Shown here piece by piece: positions 632 through 31,502 of a stretch of DNA of 36,966 bases. Under the pieces are notes generated by a model, which searched no databases, had not been told where the DNA came from, and saw nothing but the letters and a program-made list of their open reading frames with translations. Within the stretch, counting starts at the first letter, position 1; the number at the start of each line of letters is the position of its first letter. The stretch comes from a virus: positions 1 through 36,966 of IMG/VR virus record IMGVR_UViG_3300049491_000216, one strand, 5' to 3'. Position numbers and translations under genes: made by a program.

Positions 632-2660
632 TGCCGTCGAGGCATACCGGCGAGCCTTCGGGGCCGGGCTCCGTCCCGATCGCGCCTACACGGTCAGCGA
701 GTGGGCGGACGAGCACCGCATGCTCTCCAGGGTCGCCGCTTCCGAGCATGGCCGCTGGCAGACCAGGCGGACGCCGTACCTGCGCGACATCATGGATGCG
801 TTGAGCCCGTCCGATCCGTGCCAAGAGGTCACCTTCGTGAAGGGGACGCAGCTCGGCGGCTCCGAGGCCGGCTACAACTGGCTCGCCGCGATCATCGACA
901 TCTGGCCGGCGCCGACCATGCTCGTGATGCCGACCACGGACACGGCCAAGAGAATCAGCAAGCAACGCCTCGCGCCGATGATTGACGAGACGCCGAGCCT
1001 ACGCTCGAAGATCAGCGAGGCGAAGTCGCGGGACAGCGGGAATACCGTCCTCATGAAAGACTTTCCGGGCGGCGCGCTCATCCTTACCGGCGCGAACTCC
1101 GGGCCTGGACTGCGCTCCATGCCGATCCGGTTCCTCATGATGGACGAGGTCGACGCTTACCCGTCCGACGTTGATGGCGAAGGCGACCCTTGCATCGTCG
1201 CCGAGAAGCGCACGGACACGTTCAGCCGGCGCAAGATCTTCCGGTGCAGCTCGCCGAAGCTGAAGGCGACGAGCCGTATCGAACGCTTCTATGAGGCATC
1301 CGACCAGCGCCGCTATCACGTTCCATGCCCGCACTGCGAGCATGAGCAATGGCTGAAATGGGACGGGATTCGCTGGGAAACCGCGAAAGTCTGGGAGGTT
1401 ACCCGGGCAGACGACGGGGAAATCGTCGAAGTCGAGCCCGATACCGAAGGGGCGACGGAACGGGATACCGGGGACGTTGTCCGGGCGTGGTACGAATGCG
1501 AAGCCTGTCAGGGCGAGATCCTCGAGCACCACAAGACGAAGATGCTTGAGTCCGGCCGCTGGATTGCGGCGCGGCCCGGCGCGAACCGGCACCCCGGCTT
1601 TCACCTGTCGGCGCTGTACTCGCCCGTCGGCTGGTTCTCGTGGCACCAGGCCGTGCAACAGTACCTCGCGGCCGAGGGCGACCTGTCCGGCGAGCTCGCG
1701 CAGGTGTTCTCGAATACGGTGCTCGGCGAAGCCTACGACGACGCAGGCGAGCAACCGGACGAGCACGAACTGAAGCGGCACGTCGGCGAGTACCGCCTGG
1801 GCGGCAAGGTGCCGCTCGGCGCCTTGATGCTGACGGCCGGCGTCGACGTCCAGCACGACCGGCTCGAGGCGCGCGTATGGGGCTGGGGCCGGGGCGAAGA
1901 GTCCTGGCTCGTGCACCGCGAAATCATCCACGGCTCGCCGGCCGAGGAATCCACCTGGATGGCGCTCAAGGAACTCCTGTTCCGCGAGTGGGACCATGCG
2001 GGCGGCAAGACTCTCACCATCCGGGCGACCGCGATCGACGCGGGCGACGGCAACACGACGCACCACGTGCGCCAGTTCTGCCGCACCTACGCCGCGAAGC
2101 ACGTCATCGCGACGAAGGGGCAGGCGGTCGCCGGGAAGCCGATCATCGGCCGGCCGACGGAGCAGGACGTGAACCACCGCGGCAAGATGTACAAGAACGC
2201 CGTGAAGCTCTGGCCGATGGGATCCGACACCGCGAAGGCGCTGCTCTATTCGCGCTTCAAGATCGACGAACCCGGGCCGGGCTACGTTCACTTGCCGCAA
2301 GGGCTTCCAGATTCCGAGTTCTCGGAGATGACAGCCGAGAAAGTCGTTACCCGCTACGTCAAGGGCTTCCCGCGGCGCGAGTGGACGAAGAAGCCGGGCG
2401 ACCGTAACGAGGGTCTCGATTGCGCCGTCCTGGCGATCGCCGCCGCGCACTATGCCGGGTTGACGCGCGTCAACTGGCAACGCCTCGAACAGCAACTGAT
2501 TCCGCCGCCTTCTCCGGGGGTGCCACAGGTCACACCTGCCGACCAGCGCCCGCCGACCGCCGCGCCACCCGGAGAAGACACGCCGAAAACCCAGCCCGCC
2601 GCGCGCGGGCTTTTTGTTGCGCGTCCTCGCCGCACCGGCGGGTTCGCGACCAACTGGTGA
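582..2660 (+). CDS. Terminase large subunit, lambda GpA family
   Basis: ATP-driven DNA packaging motor and nuclease that cuts concatemers and fills proheads. The protein has about 692 residues, normal for GpA-type terminases. Visible motifs are a Walker A-like KGTQLGGSE (residues 87-95), a Walker B LMMDEVD (185-191), a CPHC...CEAC zinc-binding-like pair in the middle, and the nuclease acidic motifs GVDVQHDR, AIDAGDG and EGLDCAVLAIAAAHY. The frame stays open upstream, but residues before the ATG at 582 are arginine-rich shadow sequence of the small-subunit gene, so 582 is preferred. No strong Shine-Dalgarno is visible, so coupling to the small subunit is likely. The proline-rich C-terminus (about the last 45 residues) is probably flexible. 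Confidence 0.95.
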   Translation: MGSPTDYPLQLPSGIADAVEAYRRAFGAGLRPDRAYTVSEWADEHRMLSRVAASEHGRWQTRRTPYLRDIMDALSPSDPCQEVTFVKGTQLGGSEAGYNWLAAIIDIWPAPTMLVMPTTDTAKRISKQRLAPMIDETPSLRSKISEAKSRDSGNTVLMKDFPGGALILTGANSGPGLRSMPIRFLMMDEVDAYPSDVDGEGDPCIVAEKRTDTFSRRKIFRCSSPKLKATSRIERFYEASDQRRYHVPCPHCEHEQWLKWDGIRWETAKVWEVTRADDGEIVEVEPDTEGATERDTGDVVRAWYECEACQGEILEHHKTKMLESGRWIAARPGANRHPGFHLSALYSPVGWFSWHQAVQQYLAAEGDLSGELAQVFSNTVLGEAYDDAGEQPDEHELKRHVGEYRLGGKVPLGALMLTAGVDVQHDRLEARVWGWGRGEESWLVHREIIHGSPAEESTWMALKELLFREWDHAGGKTLTIRATAIDAGDGNTTHHVRQFCRTYAAKHVIATKGQAVAGKPIIGRPTEQDVNHRGKMYKNAVKLWPMGSDTAKALLYSRFKIDEPGPGYVHLPQGLPDSEFSEMTAEKVVTRYVKGFPRREWTKKPGDRNEGLDCAVLAIAAAHYAGLTRVNWQRLEQQLIPPPSPGVPQVTPADQRPPTAAPPGEDTPKTQPAARGLFVARPRRTGGFATNW

Positions 2661-2667
2661 CACTCTC

Positions 2668-3153
2668 ATGGCACTGACCAACGCGCAGATTCAGATCCTC
2701 AAGGCCGCCATAGCGGCCGAGACAAACGCCACTTTCGTGAGCTATCGCAACAGCGGCGCAACAGGCGCGATGGCCGATTGGTACAACGTCGCCATCAACC
2801 CGACGCAAAAGGCGTGGATCACGGCGCAGCCGGCGACCGACAGCGACGACGCGCCGGACTATTCGACGTTCGACGCCATCGCCGCCGGCAAGCGCGATTC
2901 GTGGGGCTTCTTCCTCGCGTATCCGCGCGACTTTGCGCGCCAGAAGGTCAGGAAATGGGTAACGGACGTTTGGGGTAACGCGACGGCATCGAGCAACTCC
3001 GAGGCGATTCTCCAGGCCGCGACCCGAAACGCCAAGCGCGGCGAGATCGTGTTCGGCGGGGCGGTCGAGACCACGGGAACGGTGGCCGCGCTGGATCTGA
3101 ACTTCGTCGGCGATATCCGCAACGAAGACATCATCGCCGCCCTGGCCGCCTGA
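2668..3153 (+). CDS. Unknown protein between terminase and portal
   Basis: A 161-residue soluble protein with no signal peptide or membrane segment. The start at ATG 2668 gives MALTNAQIQILKAAI, 5 bases after the terminase stop. It opens with a helical segment, has a middle region rich in aromatic and charged residues (WGFFLAYPRDFARQKVRKWV), and ends with a strand-rich part. The gene lies in a block of small virion-type genes in the late operon, so a head or neck structural role is possible. I do not recognise a named domain. The upstream in-frame ATG at 2614 would add 18 residues lying inside the terminase gene and is less likely. Confidence 0.7.
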   Translation: MALTNAQIQILKAAIAAETNATFVSYRNSGATGAMADWYNVAINPTQKAWITAQPATDSDDAPDYSTFDAIAAGKRDSWGFFLAYPRDFARQKVRKWVTDVWGNATASSNSEAILQAATRNAKRGEIVFGGAVETTGTVAALDLNFVGDIRNEDIIAALAA

Positions 3154-3155
3154 GC

Positions 3156-3593
3156 ATGAGCACGCACACCCTAGCGCAAGGTACACGAAGCTCCGCAGTC
3201 CTGGCGCTCGGCACCCTGGCGAGCGGAACGTATGTCTGCTCGAGCGCGATCGACCTGGGCGCGACGATCCCGATCGACGTGACTTTCGAAATGGAAGCGA
3301 ACGCCAACGGCACTCCATCGGGCAATAAGCAGTTGATGCTGTTCGCGAAGTTTTCGCTCGACAATACCAACTGGGGCAGCGGCCCGGAAAGCGGCACCAC
3401 CACGACGGAAGAGGGCGATTTACACCTTGTCGGCGTGATGCCGACAGTCGACACGAACGATCACCGCAAGTTCTTCTCGCTCGCCGGGCTTCCCGTGGCG
3501 CGCTACATGAAGCTCGTCGCGAAAAACGACTTGGGCGTCGCCCTCACCAGCGGCAACGTCTACCGCGCGGATATCACGGGCGTGACGACCTGA
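3156..3593 (+). CDS. Putative virion structural protein, beta-rich
   Basis: A 145-residue protein dominated by alternating hydrophobic and polar stretches with many Thr, Gly and Ser, consistent with a beta-sandwich such as those in phage decoration or fibre proteins. It has no signal peptide or membrane segment. The ATG at 3156 follows the previous stop by 2 bases and the next gene starts 2 bases after its own stop, so it is part of the same late transcript. A stretch such as DNTNWGSGPESGTTTTEEGDL resembles small phage proteins I have seen near head genes, but that is recollection only. A decoration or head-fibre role is inference. Confidence 0.7.
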   Translation: MSTHTLAQGTRSSAVLALGTLASGTYVCSSAIDLGATIPIDVTFEMEANANGTPSGNKQLMLFAKFSLDNTNWGSGPESGTTTTEEGDLHLVGVMPTVDTNDHRKFFSLAGLPVARYMKLVAKNDLGVALTSGNVYRADITGVTT

Positions 3594-3595
3594 CT

Positions 3596-5062
3596 ATGAG
3601 CGGTCGCGACAACTTCCTGCGTGATGTGCCATGGACGCGGCAGCCGCAGATCCCGGTCGGGATCAATCCACGGTTTGCGGCGGCAACGAAACTCCTGATA
3701 TTGCCCGGACTCGGCTGGCACAACCTCGCTTTATTTGGTGAAGTCGCACAGTCAAACGCCGCAATCCCGCTTTCGTCAACACCAAGCGGCAGAACGTTTG
3801 AATTCGACGGAACAACCACTTACGCCGAGTACGGGCCGATTCTGGACGCGGCTGCTGGCGACTTGACGCTGATAGCGATTCTGAGAGCGAATTCCGCTCA
3901 GTACCTCGGGGCGGATGGCGACAGGTATCTGGTAAGCAGCAGAACGGCTGGCAACGCCGGTTTCGCCTGGGGCCTGAATGCGGCAACTGGTGGCGGTGCT
4001 GGCGGGAATGTGACGGCGCAGACGTTAGTGCTGAACGGCGTCGCGGCATACACCGAGGCGAGCTACACGATTGAATCGTTCGTTGATACTCCGGTGGCAT
4101 TCCGGTATGTCAAATCGACCGGCACAATATCGTGGTTCAGATTCGGTAGCAAAAGTTCAGCAGACACGGCGGGAAGCACCTCACCTACAACCGGTAGTAA
4201 TTTGAATGTAGGCCAGTTAGGCCCATATGCCGGCAGTAATCGTTTTAAGCATCGCGCGCATGTCATCGTCGGCATGCAGCGGGCTCTTTCCGATTCTGAA
4301 ATACACGACCTGACAAGCAGTGTTCCTTCGGTCTGGCAACTCTTCGCCCCTCTACCAAGACGTATATTCGTAGGGCCGTCGGCGGGTGGTGCCTATACGC
4401 TAACCGCTGATGCAGGAACGTTCAACAAAACCGGAACAGACGCTACCCTGGCGTTCAATCGCGTTGTCGGCGCATCTGCAGGCGCGTTCGCACTGACCGG
4501 CACCGATGCTTCGCTTCAGTACGGCCGCACGCTCACCGCGGCGGCCGGGACGTTCAATCTTACCGGGACCGATGCGACCCTCGCATACAACCGCGTTCTG
4601 ACTGCGGCGGCGGGCGCGTATGCGCTGACCGGCACGGATGCATCGCTCGTCTACACGCCGGCCGGCGGCGGAACCACCTACACGCTGACCGCCGACACGG
4701 TCGCTTTCTCGCTGACCGGAACTGCAGCGACGCTCGCCTACAACCGAGTGGTAACGGCCGCGGCCGGAAGTTACGCACTGTCAGGAACTGCGGCGACGCT
4801 GACCCGCGGGTTCAACATGACGGCGACGGGCGGCGCCTACACCTTCACGGGCACAGACGCGACGTTCAATCGTACGTATGTGCTCGCATCCAGCGCGGGC
4901 GCCTACACCTTCACTGGCACTGCGGCGACCCTCACATACAGCGCGGCCGCGGTCGTCATCGACTACGGTGACGCGGACTTCGTCATGCGGTTCTCGGGCG
5001 GCAGTACGCAACGCATCGGTCCATCAATTTCCGGCGCATCAGGCCAGAAGATCCGACACTAA
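3596..5062 (+). CDS. LamG-like adhesin with eight tandem 22-residue repeats
   Basis: Large 488-residue presumed virion surface protein. Residues about 25-250 look like a LamG/concanavalin-type jelly roll, with patterns such as FEFDGTTTYAEYG, DLTLIAILRAN and a terminal MQRALSDSEIHDL, which is typical of phage LamG proteins. Residues 267-450 are eight imperfect 22-residue repeats of the form V-T-A-A-A-G-x-Y-A-L-T-G-T-D-A-T-L. A short C-terminal cap follows. The N-terminal coding region is visibly more AT-rich than its neighbours, suggesting acquisition. It sits between terminase and portal rather than with tail fibres, so it may be a head- or neck-attached fibre that binds glycans. That placement on the virion is inference. 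Confidence 0.75.
   Translation: MSGRDNFLRDVPWTRQPQIPVGINPRFAAATKLLILPGLGWHNLALFGEVAQSNAAIPLSSTPSGRTFEFDGTTTYAEYGPILDAAAGDLTLIAILRANSAQYLGADGDRYLVSSRTAGNAGFAWGLNAATGGGAGGNVTAQTLVLNGVAAYTEASYTIESFVDTPVAFRYVKSTGTISWFRFGSKSSADTAGSTSPTTGSNLNVGQLGPYAGSNRFKHRAHVIVGMQRALSDSEIHDLTSSVPSVWQLFAPLPRRIFVGPSAGGAYTLTADAGTFNKTGTDATLAFNRVVGASAGAFALTGTDASLQYGRTLTAAAGTFNLTGTDATLAYNRVLTAAAGAYALTGTDASLVYTPAGGGTTYTLTADTVAFSLTGTAATLAYNRVVTAAAGSYALSGTAATLTRGFNMTATGGAYTFTGTDATFNRTYVLASSAGAYTFTGTAATLTYSAAAVVIDYGDADFVMRFSGGSTQRIGPSISGASGQKIRH
4394..4945 (+). repeat. Eight tandem ~66-bp coding repeats (22-residue units)
   Basis: In-gene tandem repeat region encoding residues 267-450 of the LamG-like protein. Each unit encodes roughly two short beta strands separated by AGxY/F and TGTDATL turns. 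The copies are diverged at the DNA level but strongly alike in protein, which suggests selection for a repeated fold such as a beta-helix or beta-roll stalk. One unit is followed by a PAGGGTT linker. Confidence 0.85.
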
Positions 5063-30038: not shown

Positions 30039-30113
30039 TTAGTACCCGTCCCCGTCCCCGGACCCGGACCCGTACCCGTACCCGGACCCGGACCAGATGC
30101 TTACTTCGCCCAC
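30039..30113 (-). CDS. 24-residue Gly-repeat minigene (candidate)
   Basis: From a GTG at 30113 (inside the end of the upstream gene) to TAA at 30039-30041. The peptide starts MGEVSIW and then consists of Ser-Gly, Tyr-Gly and Asp-Gly pairs, each kind duplicated, ending in Tyr. I recall Gly/Ser/Tyr/Asp repeat peptides from phages of this kind, which supports a real product. The ribosome site is weak. The alternative is that the repeat acts at the DNA or RNA level only. Confidence 0.4.
   Translation of the reverse strand: MGEVSIWSGSGYGYGSGSGDGDGY
30042..30095 (-). repeat. Nine tandem hexamers, G-rich on the coding strand
   Basis: On the minus strand the sequence is nine hexamers GGGTCC, GGGTAC or GGGGAC in a row. 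It has eight runs of three or more G separated by three bases, so it could fold as a G-quadruplex in DNA or mRNA. Different hexamers occur in adjacent identical pairs, a sign of slippage growth. Confidence 0.85.
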
Positions 30114-30384: not shown

Positions 30385-30579
30385 TTAACTGCGGTTTGAC
30401 TGCTTGCGCTTCATTCGGCAGGCCTCGCAGATCGCGCGAACGCCGTTCTTCGTCTGAATGCGCCCGACCGTCTCAGCCGGCGCGTAGTGCATGCCGTGCT
30501 GGCACCAGCGGGTTCCGGTTACGGCGGCCGCGGCGTCGGTCTGGCGGCGGCGTTCGGCGTTGTTGATGTTCCAGGGCAT
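30385..30579 (-). CDS. Small Cys-containing (zinc-ribbon-like) protein
   Basis: A 64-residue protein with WCQHGMHYAPA and AICEACRMKRK, a possible two-part metal site (Cys, His, Cys-x-x-Cys). ATG 30579 lies 1 base after the stop of the 305-residue frame that overlaps dcm, with GGGGG about 8 bases upstream; ATG 30594 is an alternative. It overlaps the end of the dcm frame by 61 bases. Possibly a nucleic-acid-binding accessory protein. Confidence 0.6.
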   Translation of the reverse strand: MPWNINNAERRRQTDAAAAVTGTRWCQHGMHYAPAETVGRIQTKNGVRAICEACRMKRKQSNRS

Positions 30580-31502
30580 GTCAGCAACCCCCATGCTGTC
30601 GCCGCCACTCTCGGAACTTGTCCATTCCCAAGGGCTTTAAGTCGGTCCACCCGAGCGGCCACCCCATAAGCCACTCGACCCACGTCGGGTTCAGAGAACC
30701 AACCTCCCCCGCTCGGATCATGTCGCCGGGGATTCCGGATCTCGTCCCTTGGCTTTTCGGAAGCGATGCCTGCTTCGCATCGTTCGCTGTCGGCGTCGCC
30801 CACTGCTTTACCGCCGTCGCCAACCCGTCGCCGCTCTTCGCGCTCAAGCCCGCCTTGTTGTAGTTCCCGTCCACGGTCGGCGTCGGCCAACGCTTCGGCG
30901 CAATTTCCGTTACATTCTGCCCGACGCGCCCTTTCTTCCATCCGCGCACCGCTTTCGTCAGCGTCAAGTGACTGCCCGGCGTCTGCGCTCCATCCCGTTC
31001 GTTCGCCGCCGGCGTCGGCCACAATCCATATCCGTTCCCGTCGATGGGGCGCACCAACGTCGGCAGCACTGACGACTCCCCATCTTGCATGGAACCCCAT
31101 CTCGGCCAAGTCTCCGAGTACGCGGTCGAGTCCTCGAGAAGTGAGTGCTGGCGAGTTTTCCACGAACGCGAATCGGGGTCGTACTTCGCGAATGATCCGG
31201 GCCATCTCCACCCAGAGGCCGGAGCGGGCACCGTCGAGTCCACCGCCTTTGCCGGCCACGCTGATGTCCTGGCAGGGAAACCCGCCCGATACCACGTCAA
31301 CAATGCCTCGCCATGGCCGTCCGTCAAAGGTGCGAACGTCATCCCAAATCGGGAAGGGCGGGAGAATGCCGTCATTCTGTCGGGCGACAAGTACGCTTGC
31401 GGCGTAAGGGTCGAACTCGACGGCGCAGACGGTTTGCCAGCCGAGGAGGTGGCCGCCGAGTATTCCGCCGCCAGCGCCCGCGAATAAAGCCAGCTCATGC
31501 AT
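30519..31502 (-). CDS. dcm: C5-cytosine DNA methyltransferase (Dcm family)
   Basis: A 327-residue enzyme that adds a methyl group to carbon 5 of cytosine using SAM, probably protecting phage DNA from restriction. Motifs in order: I FAGAGG (residues 7-12), II VEFDPYAA, IV GFPCQ with catalytic Cys77, VI ENS (115-117), VIII HRRERIW, a variable target-recognition region with repeated ADAD-type stretches, and the late LKALGNGQVPRVAATAW motif. The preferred start is ATG 31502, overlapping the upstream stop by 8 bases; ATG 31514 is possible. Almost the whole gene is also open in the +1 frame (see the 30581-31498 entry). Confidence 0.9.
   Translation of the reverse strand: MHELALFAGAGGGILGGHLLGWQTVCAVEFDPYAASVLVARQNDGILPPFPIWDDVRTFDGRPWRGIVDVVSGGFPCQDISVAGKGGGLDGARSGLWVEMARIIREVRPRFAFVENSPALTSRGLDRVLGDLAEMGFHARWGVVSAADVGAPHRRERIWIVADAGGERTGWSADAGQSLDADESGARMEERARRAECNGNCAEALADADRGRELQQGGLEREERRRVGDGGKAVGDADSERCEAGIASEKPRDEIRNPRRHDPSGGGWFSEPDVGRVAYGVAARVDRLKALGNGQVPRVAATAWGLLTCPGTSTTPNAAARPTPRPP
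30581..31498 (-). CDS. Overprinted protein in the +1 frame of dcm (candidate)
   Basis: A 305-residue frame on the same strand as dcm, covering nearly all of it. It starts at ATG 31498, whose ATGA overlaps the upstream stop, and ends 1 base before the next gene, so it tiles the operon better than dcm itself. The protein reads like a real phage family I recall: GEALLTWYRAGFPARTS, SWKTRQHSL, SETWPRWGSMQDGE, three WPTP/WATP repeats, and LNPTWVEWLMGWPLGWTDL near the end. Its FPARTS and WPTP motifs are the +1 reading of dcm's FPCQ and ADAG motifs. ATG 31375 is an alternative start. Function unknown; translation is unproven. Confidence 0.6.
   Translation of the reverse strand: MSWLYSRALAAEYSAATSSAGKPSAPSSSTLTPQAYLSPDRMTAFSRPSRFGMTFAPLTDGHGEALLTWYRAGFPARTSAWPAKAVDSTVPAPASGWRWPGSFAKYDPDSRSWKTRQHSLLEDSTAYSETWPRWGSMQDGESSVLPTLVRPIDGNGYGLWPTPAANERDGAQTPGSHLTLTKAVRGWKKGRVGQNVTEIAPKRWPTPTVDGNYNKAGLSAKSGDGLATAVKQWATPTANDAKQASLPKSQGTRSGIPGDMIRAGEVGSLNPTWVEWLMGWPLGWTDLKPLGMDKFREWRRQHGGC

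Follow-up and report, generated by a model that had tools for sequence, protein, structure and literature searches.

The question raised by this locus is why two full-length reading frames occupy the same strand of the same stretch of DNA, and whether both are genes. The window (the whole stretch of DNA analysed, 36,966 bases of IMG/VR virus record IMGVR_UViG_3300049491_000216) encodes head, tail and recombination genes of phage type. One frame encodes a DNA cytosine-5 methyltransferase (dcm; P0001, here alpha), and the other, in the +1 frame relative to dcm, encodes a second protein (P0002, here beta). The positions given in the initial annotation are exact: the string ATGCATGA contains the dcm ATG (31502-31500), the second-frame ATG (31498-31496) and the TGA of the upstream gene (31497-31495). 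The second frame stays open for 305 codons to a TGA at 30583-30581, one base before the ATG at 30579, and the dcm frame extends to a TAA at 30521-30519, 61 bases inside the next gene (Table 1). From this arrangement it had been argued that the second frame tiles the operon better. This does not mean that the second frame replaces dcm: both frames are under selection. Searches of the upstream gene against PHROG returned no match. About 20 residues of dcm lie beyond motif X, inside the next gene (30519-30578, minus strand). A GC-rich tandem repeat of CGGGT(C/A)-like units occurs at ~30040-30105 (minus strand), just 3' of an ORF ending at 30101.

Based on sequence comparisons and structure modelling, the two frames very probably encode the subunits of one heterodimeric DNA cytosine-5 methyltransferase. 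In enzymes of this class motifs I-VIII, with part of X, make up the large domain, and the target recognition domain (TRD) and motif IX make up the small one; splits between motif VIII and the TRD complement well (PMC5944983; PMC3404938). This division matches alpha as the large and beta as the small domain. Alpha would provide the catalytic domain with motifs I-VIII, followed by a disordered bridge and motif X. Beta would provide ~158 residues overprinted on the catalytic domain, then a variable, modular recognition region, then motif IX. We infer that both are translated, from one mRNA region via twin starts 4 nt apart, that they assemble into an active enzyme that methylates DNA, and that the recognition domain resides in beta.

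Table 1. Features of the overlapping methyltransferase frames in the window, and of three relatives (numbered within their own loci).
Feature	Coordinates	Strand	Basis or remark
Upstream gene, 116 aa	31495..31845	(-)	Stop overlaps twin start
Twin start ATGCATGAG	31494..31502	(-)	dcm ATG, beta ATG and TGA of upstream gene
Alpha (P0001), dcm frame, 327 aa	30519..31502	(-)	C5-methyltransferase; motifs I-VIII and X, without motif IX
Alpha large-domain part, motifs I-VIII, residues 1-164	31011..31502	(-)	hhalign to M.HhaI
Alpha motif X region (RVDRLKALGNGQVPRVAATAWGLL)	30579..30653	(-)	GNGQVP conserved in alignment A4
Beta (P0002), second frame (dcm frame +1), 305 aa	30581..31498	(-)	ATG 4 nt downstream of dcm start
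Beta N-terminal part, residues 1-158, overprinted on catalytic domain	31025..31498	(-)	dSN/dSS; P(open) about 0.01 per locus by shuffling
Beta variable region, three [WLF]PTP-type modules; proposed target-recognition region	30701..31024	(-)	dNS/dSN; mosaic modules
Beta motif IX-like segment (SLNPTWVEWLMGWPLGW), residues 268-284	30647..30697	(-)	PSSM
Next gene	30385..30579	(-)	Begins 1 base past beta stop; overlapped by last 61 bases of dcm
L127 (Paraburkholderia)	2483-3997		Motif X in second frame
L150 (Spirochaetia)	2501-3667		Motif X in second frame
L173 (Kiritimatiellae)	2216-3793		Motif X in second frame

The second frame is open far beyond chance. When the dcm codons of the window were permuted synonymously, with codon usage and the encoded protein unchanged, the second frame acquired 6.1 stops on average and remained open in 1e-4 of permutations. 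The second frame also defines a protein family with relatives well outside this phage, at hundreds of phage and bacterial loci, as the initial annotation had supposed. P0002 matched 122 phage records by tblastn, and second-frame profile searches identified 571 candidate stretches in IMG/VR and 410 in GTDB, from each of which 80 were kept. Both genes were found together in phages of Acinetobacter, Salmonella, Microcystis, Stenotrophomonas, Paenibacillus and Mycobacterium, as well as in numerous bacterial genomes; in all intact loci inspected, the two frames are offset by 1 nt. Homologues away from dcm, also envisaged in that annotation, were not found: dcm overlapped the second frame in every locus examined.

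To avoid selecting on the second frame, we also collected loci via a dcm alignment. The 81 loci found represent a clade rather than all C5-methyltransferases, because the alignment was built from loci with the second frame. The second frame is open (reaching within 60 nt of the end of the dcm profile) in 80 of the 81, and the third frame in none (0/81). Synonymous permutation of these loci predicts 5.5 stops per locus, with a mean probability of being open of 0.002; for the first 160 codons alone the values are 3.2 stops and about 0.013. Loci whose gene has a GC content of about 46-49% agree, with 7.5 stops expected in a Microcystis phage and 2.9 in a Leptospira plasmid. The reverse permutation, which preserves the second frame, was applied to loci picked for a complete dcm and predicts 3.7 stops in alpha over its C-terminal part, yet alpha is open. 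These counts bear on whether the second frame could be an untranslated shadow, held open through codon bias and constraint on dcm. The high GC here (62%) and the lack of a Pfam or NCBIfam match for P0002 are in keeping with such a shadow, but it would be hard to reconcile with a frame open at about 46% GC where about 7.5 stops are expected, or with the difference between the second and third frames.

Some relatives depart from the intact arrangement. In one (L041/L178) beta has a stop and dcm is intact. Elsewhere the dcm frame is interrupted and the second frame intact, with the stop just past motif VIII (L055/L236, L097 and L166/L284) or at other places (L121 and L167). All of these retain motif X in a downstream dcm-frame ORF, and the stops may reflect decay, readthrough, sequencing error or a three-piece enzyme. 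In E. coli PCP07014 (L297:2003-2764), where the gene is recorded as a pseudogene containing an internal stop, both frames seem broken near one place. Locus L092 (2147-3997) contains a third-frame ORF with a C-terminal HNH-like stretch (3486-3884) between motifs IX and X. Towards the 5' end, it is the beta frame that contains motif I, beside a G run, which suggests an indel or a sequencing error.

Substitution classes were analysed in codon alignments of 185 loci, with 57 flanking-gene pairs from the same loci as the control (RecT, considered as a control family, has too few relatives). The dNN/dNS ratio was dropped as a test of second-frame constraint; it is uninformative because ordinary flanking genes give equal values (0.61-0.72). 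Over the catalytic part, where the N-terminal part of beta is encoded, dSN/dSS is 0.26-0.43, compared with 0.57-0.62 for flanking genes; even in this part, therefore, selection acts against changes to the second frame. The ratio dNS/dSN (changes that alter dcm but not the second frame, relative to those that alter only the second frame) is 0.23-0.55 for codons 1-164, 2.52 (2.03-3.23) for codons 166-264 and 1.14 for codons 265-308; flanking control genes give 0.15-0.28. Constraint thus changes frame at codon ~165, and the profile identifies dcm as the main frame over motifs I-VIII, the second frame as the main frame over the variable region, and both as constrained at the end. In the variable region the dcm sequence is hardly constrained (dNN/dSN 1.07). 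Because the loci are phylogenetically related, z-scores are inflated.

Individual sites agree with the ratios. Invariant synonymous third bases of dcm fall at the invariant beta residues G279, G135, P271, P281, P132, W276 and M1; the counts are 69/69 at G279 and at G135 and 62/62 at P132. In a partly circular comparison of 85 disjoint pairs, 34-37% of four-fold sites differ at variable beta residues and 2-6% at conserved ones. Constraint is not confined to the dcm frame, and the earlier proposal of two coding frames stands.

The start of beta is also under selection. All of the 169 loci with an aligned start (169/169) have the beta ATG, placed 4 nt downstream of the dcm start register; the dcm register itself reads ATG, GTG or TTG in 152 of them. 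The twin start is mostly (A/G/T)TGAATGAG among relatives. At dcm codon 2 (Asn) AAT occurs 161 times and AAC never, compared with an AAT:AAC ratio of 646:1080 elsewhere in these genes; at codon 3 (Glu) the counts are GAG 209 and GAA 0, compared with GAG:GAA of 961:1788 elsewhere. A Shine-Dalgarno-like core is common in relatives 3-5 nt 5' of the dcm start, and therefore 7-9 nt before the second start. In the window, a strong Shine-Dalgarno core is absent at that position before the dcm start. Translational coupling of the twin start to the upstream gene is plausible there, because the TGA of that gene overlaps it. The frozen start and frozen dcm synonymous sites, the dNS/dSN of 2.52 in the variable region and the existence of variants whose beta carries motif X all speak against an untranslated shadow frame, which we consider exceedingly improbable. 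The second frame is a real, selected gene.

What, then, does each frame encode? The initial annotation credited dcm with all C5-methyltransferase motifs. Motifs I-VIII and X are present in alpha; a canonical motif IX and a predicted folded recognition domain are not. PF00145 matches alpha over residues 5-162 only (E 1.4e-32), and the alpha alignment matches residues 15-176 of M.HhaI by hhalign (E 5e-19). The PF00145 match stops near motif VIII in alpha and its relatives, whereas canonical enzymes of the same bacterial genomes match over 1-322. Motif X is recognizable by the conserved RLKALGNGQVP, and helices 281-308 of the model align with the C-terminus of M.HhaI. A PSSM of the alpha C-terminus finds no motif IX. 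In the AF2 model of alpha, pLDDT exceeds 90 for the motif X helices and the bulk of residues 1-166, and is below 50 across most of ~197-284. The model aligns with M.HhaI (2uyc) over 190 residues, approximately the size of the large domain (VIA-align Z 22.4). Alpha is thus predicted to fold as the large domain and motif X only, with a disordered bridge between them.

Beta appears to hold what alpha is missing. Near its C-terminus, the second-frame LNPTWVEWLMGWPLGW is in register with canonical C5-methyltransferase motif IX. A PSSM of the beta segment placed motif IX (LTPRECARLMGFPDTF; LHPRECARVMGYPDSY in M.HhaI) as the top window, in register, in 7/8 canonical enzymes. This assignment rests on 16-19 residues, and although motif IX is also the best local match of beta to M.HhaI by hhalign, that match is not significant (E 0.34). 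Beta gave no meaningful hhalign match to the canonical alignment. Upstream of this segment, the variable region of relatives consists in most loci of 1-6 tandem modules that start with [WLF]PTP, in mosaic combinations. Such a modular mosaic fits a recognition region, the role we assign to it by inference from the sequences. The first module of the window (TPGSHLTLTKAV) was found again in an Acinetobacter locus (L289). Residues 1-158 are under selection, and our guess is that they dock on alpha.

We also considered that the second frame may be translated as a separate accessory protein, such as a regulator or anti-restriction factor, rather than as a methyltransferase subunit. A Pfam search with its N-terminal half found no relative whose function is known. 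Sequence searches of PDB with the second-frame alignment and with the beta of L150 gave no match. AF2 of beta alone yielded no confident model (pLDDT 57.6, pTM 0.27), and a fold search with this model found nothing, an outcome that carries no weight given how poor the model is. The missing relatives and the empty fold search would suit an accessory protein, yet beta is always linked to dcm and carries the motif that dcm lacks, and single-chain relatives have the equivalent segment within the methyltransferase itself. An accessory role is thus very unlikely, and a methyltransferase subunit remains our preferred assignment for beta.

The single-chain relatives are phage enzymes such as Tweety gp72 and CheeseTouch gp88, in which a C-terminal IX-X segment of the beta type is in the same chain as motifs I-VIII. 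The Tweety gp72-like enzymes share with the window pair motifs I-VIII, a PTP-containing region, xxEWMMGWPxGW (motif IX) and motif X, but have everything in one open frame. In other relatives, namely the Cluster O mycobacteriophages L010 and L011 and the three loci at the foot of Table 1, the alpha frame stops beyond motif VIII, and both IX and X are found in beta. In these loci a complete methyltransferase requires the second frame. The Cluster O pairs (Corndog gp7/gp6 and Firecracker gp6/gp5) resemble the window pair in having a catalytic half together with C-terminal methylase helices in an overlapping, P0002-related second frame. They differ in that alpha ends after VIII, motif X belongs to the second frame, and the two frames overlap only briefly. 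The C-terminal 53 residues of Corndog gp6 match the last three helices of M.HaeIII by HHpred (PMC4351075).

For the Corndog version a frameshift, hop or intron was raised, and whether two products are made was left open (PMC4351075). A single polypeptide could indeed arise if ribosomes shifted after motif VIII into the second frame, and back again for motif X; in L127, L150 and similar loci, one shift would suffice for the canonical order I-VIII-TRD-IX-X. However, the window would require two opposite shifts, a conserved slippery heptamer is not evident at the end of motif VIII, and the separate beta start is strictly conserved, with beta open and constrained 5' of any shift point. We therefore regard frameshifting as unlikely and two separately initiated subunits as the better reading.

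Two-subunit enzymes of this kind are known. Within the alpha gene of M.EcoHK31I, a different frame encodes its beta subunit of 176 residues. In this enzyme (YGGCCR) the large subunit carries motifs I-VIII and X and the small subunit motif IX, with the predicted TRD placed in the large subunit (PMC3404938). Judged by this published description, the window pair has the same split of motifs across two polypeptides. The second is likewise in another frame overlapping the first, and carries the motif IX-like segment (by PSSM; the hhalign match is not significant). The differences are that beta of the window spans nearly the whole gene (305 aa), whereas that of M.EcoHK31I is shorter, and that the variable region is assigned to beta rather than to the large subunit. 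M.AquI (CYCGRG) is a heterodimer with a natural split after motif VIII, and its beta carries IX and X (PMC3404938). The window pair would similarly be a two-subunit C5-methyltransferase split downstream of VIII, but its motif X is in alpha; in the position of motif X it is L127, L150 and L173 that are M.AquI-like.

How did the overlap arise? The initial annotation suggested birth of the second protein by overprinting. Overprinting is supported, but beta is not an unrelated newcomer, because the motif IX-like segment and the variable region, both missing from the dcm frame, lie in its C-terminal half. Overprinting probably went both ways, with beta residues 1-158 arising over the dcm catalytic domain and dcm codons ~165-264 over the recognition region of beta. 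The canonical one-chain order suggests that the TRD and motif IX were once in frame with I-VIII, so the second frame is probably ancestral over the recognition half, and what dcm reads there would be a more recent open stretch linking to motif X. A more detailed scenario is plausible, if somewhat short of probable: a ~0.9 kb gene in which nearly every base codes for the catalytic and recognition subunits of an obligate heterodimer, with ~158 beta residues evolved de novo for assembly, ~100 alpha residues evolved de novo as a bridge to motif X, and exchangeable recognition modules giving several target sites.

The general kind of arrangement is thus known from M.EcoHK31I, and a related one was noticed in Cluster O phages. 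To the extent of the open-access literature searched, the full-length overlap, the switch of constraint between frames and the very wide distribution are new. If our reading is correct, both domains of one enzyme are stored in two frames over the whole length of one stretch of DNA, in hundreds of phages and prophages. Such loci are usually annotated as dcm alone (as in the E. coli and Leptospira RefSeq records examined), and on this reading the annotated dcm cloned by itself should be an inactive enzyme. The finding bears on the choice between two products and a frameshift raised for Corndog (PMC4351075). More broadly, these loci provide a large natural data set on the evolution of overlapping genes, with many intact and others in which motif X has moved or the enzyme is a single chain.
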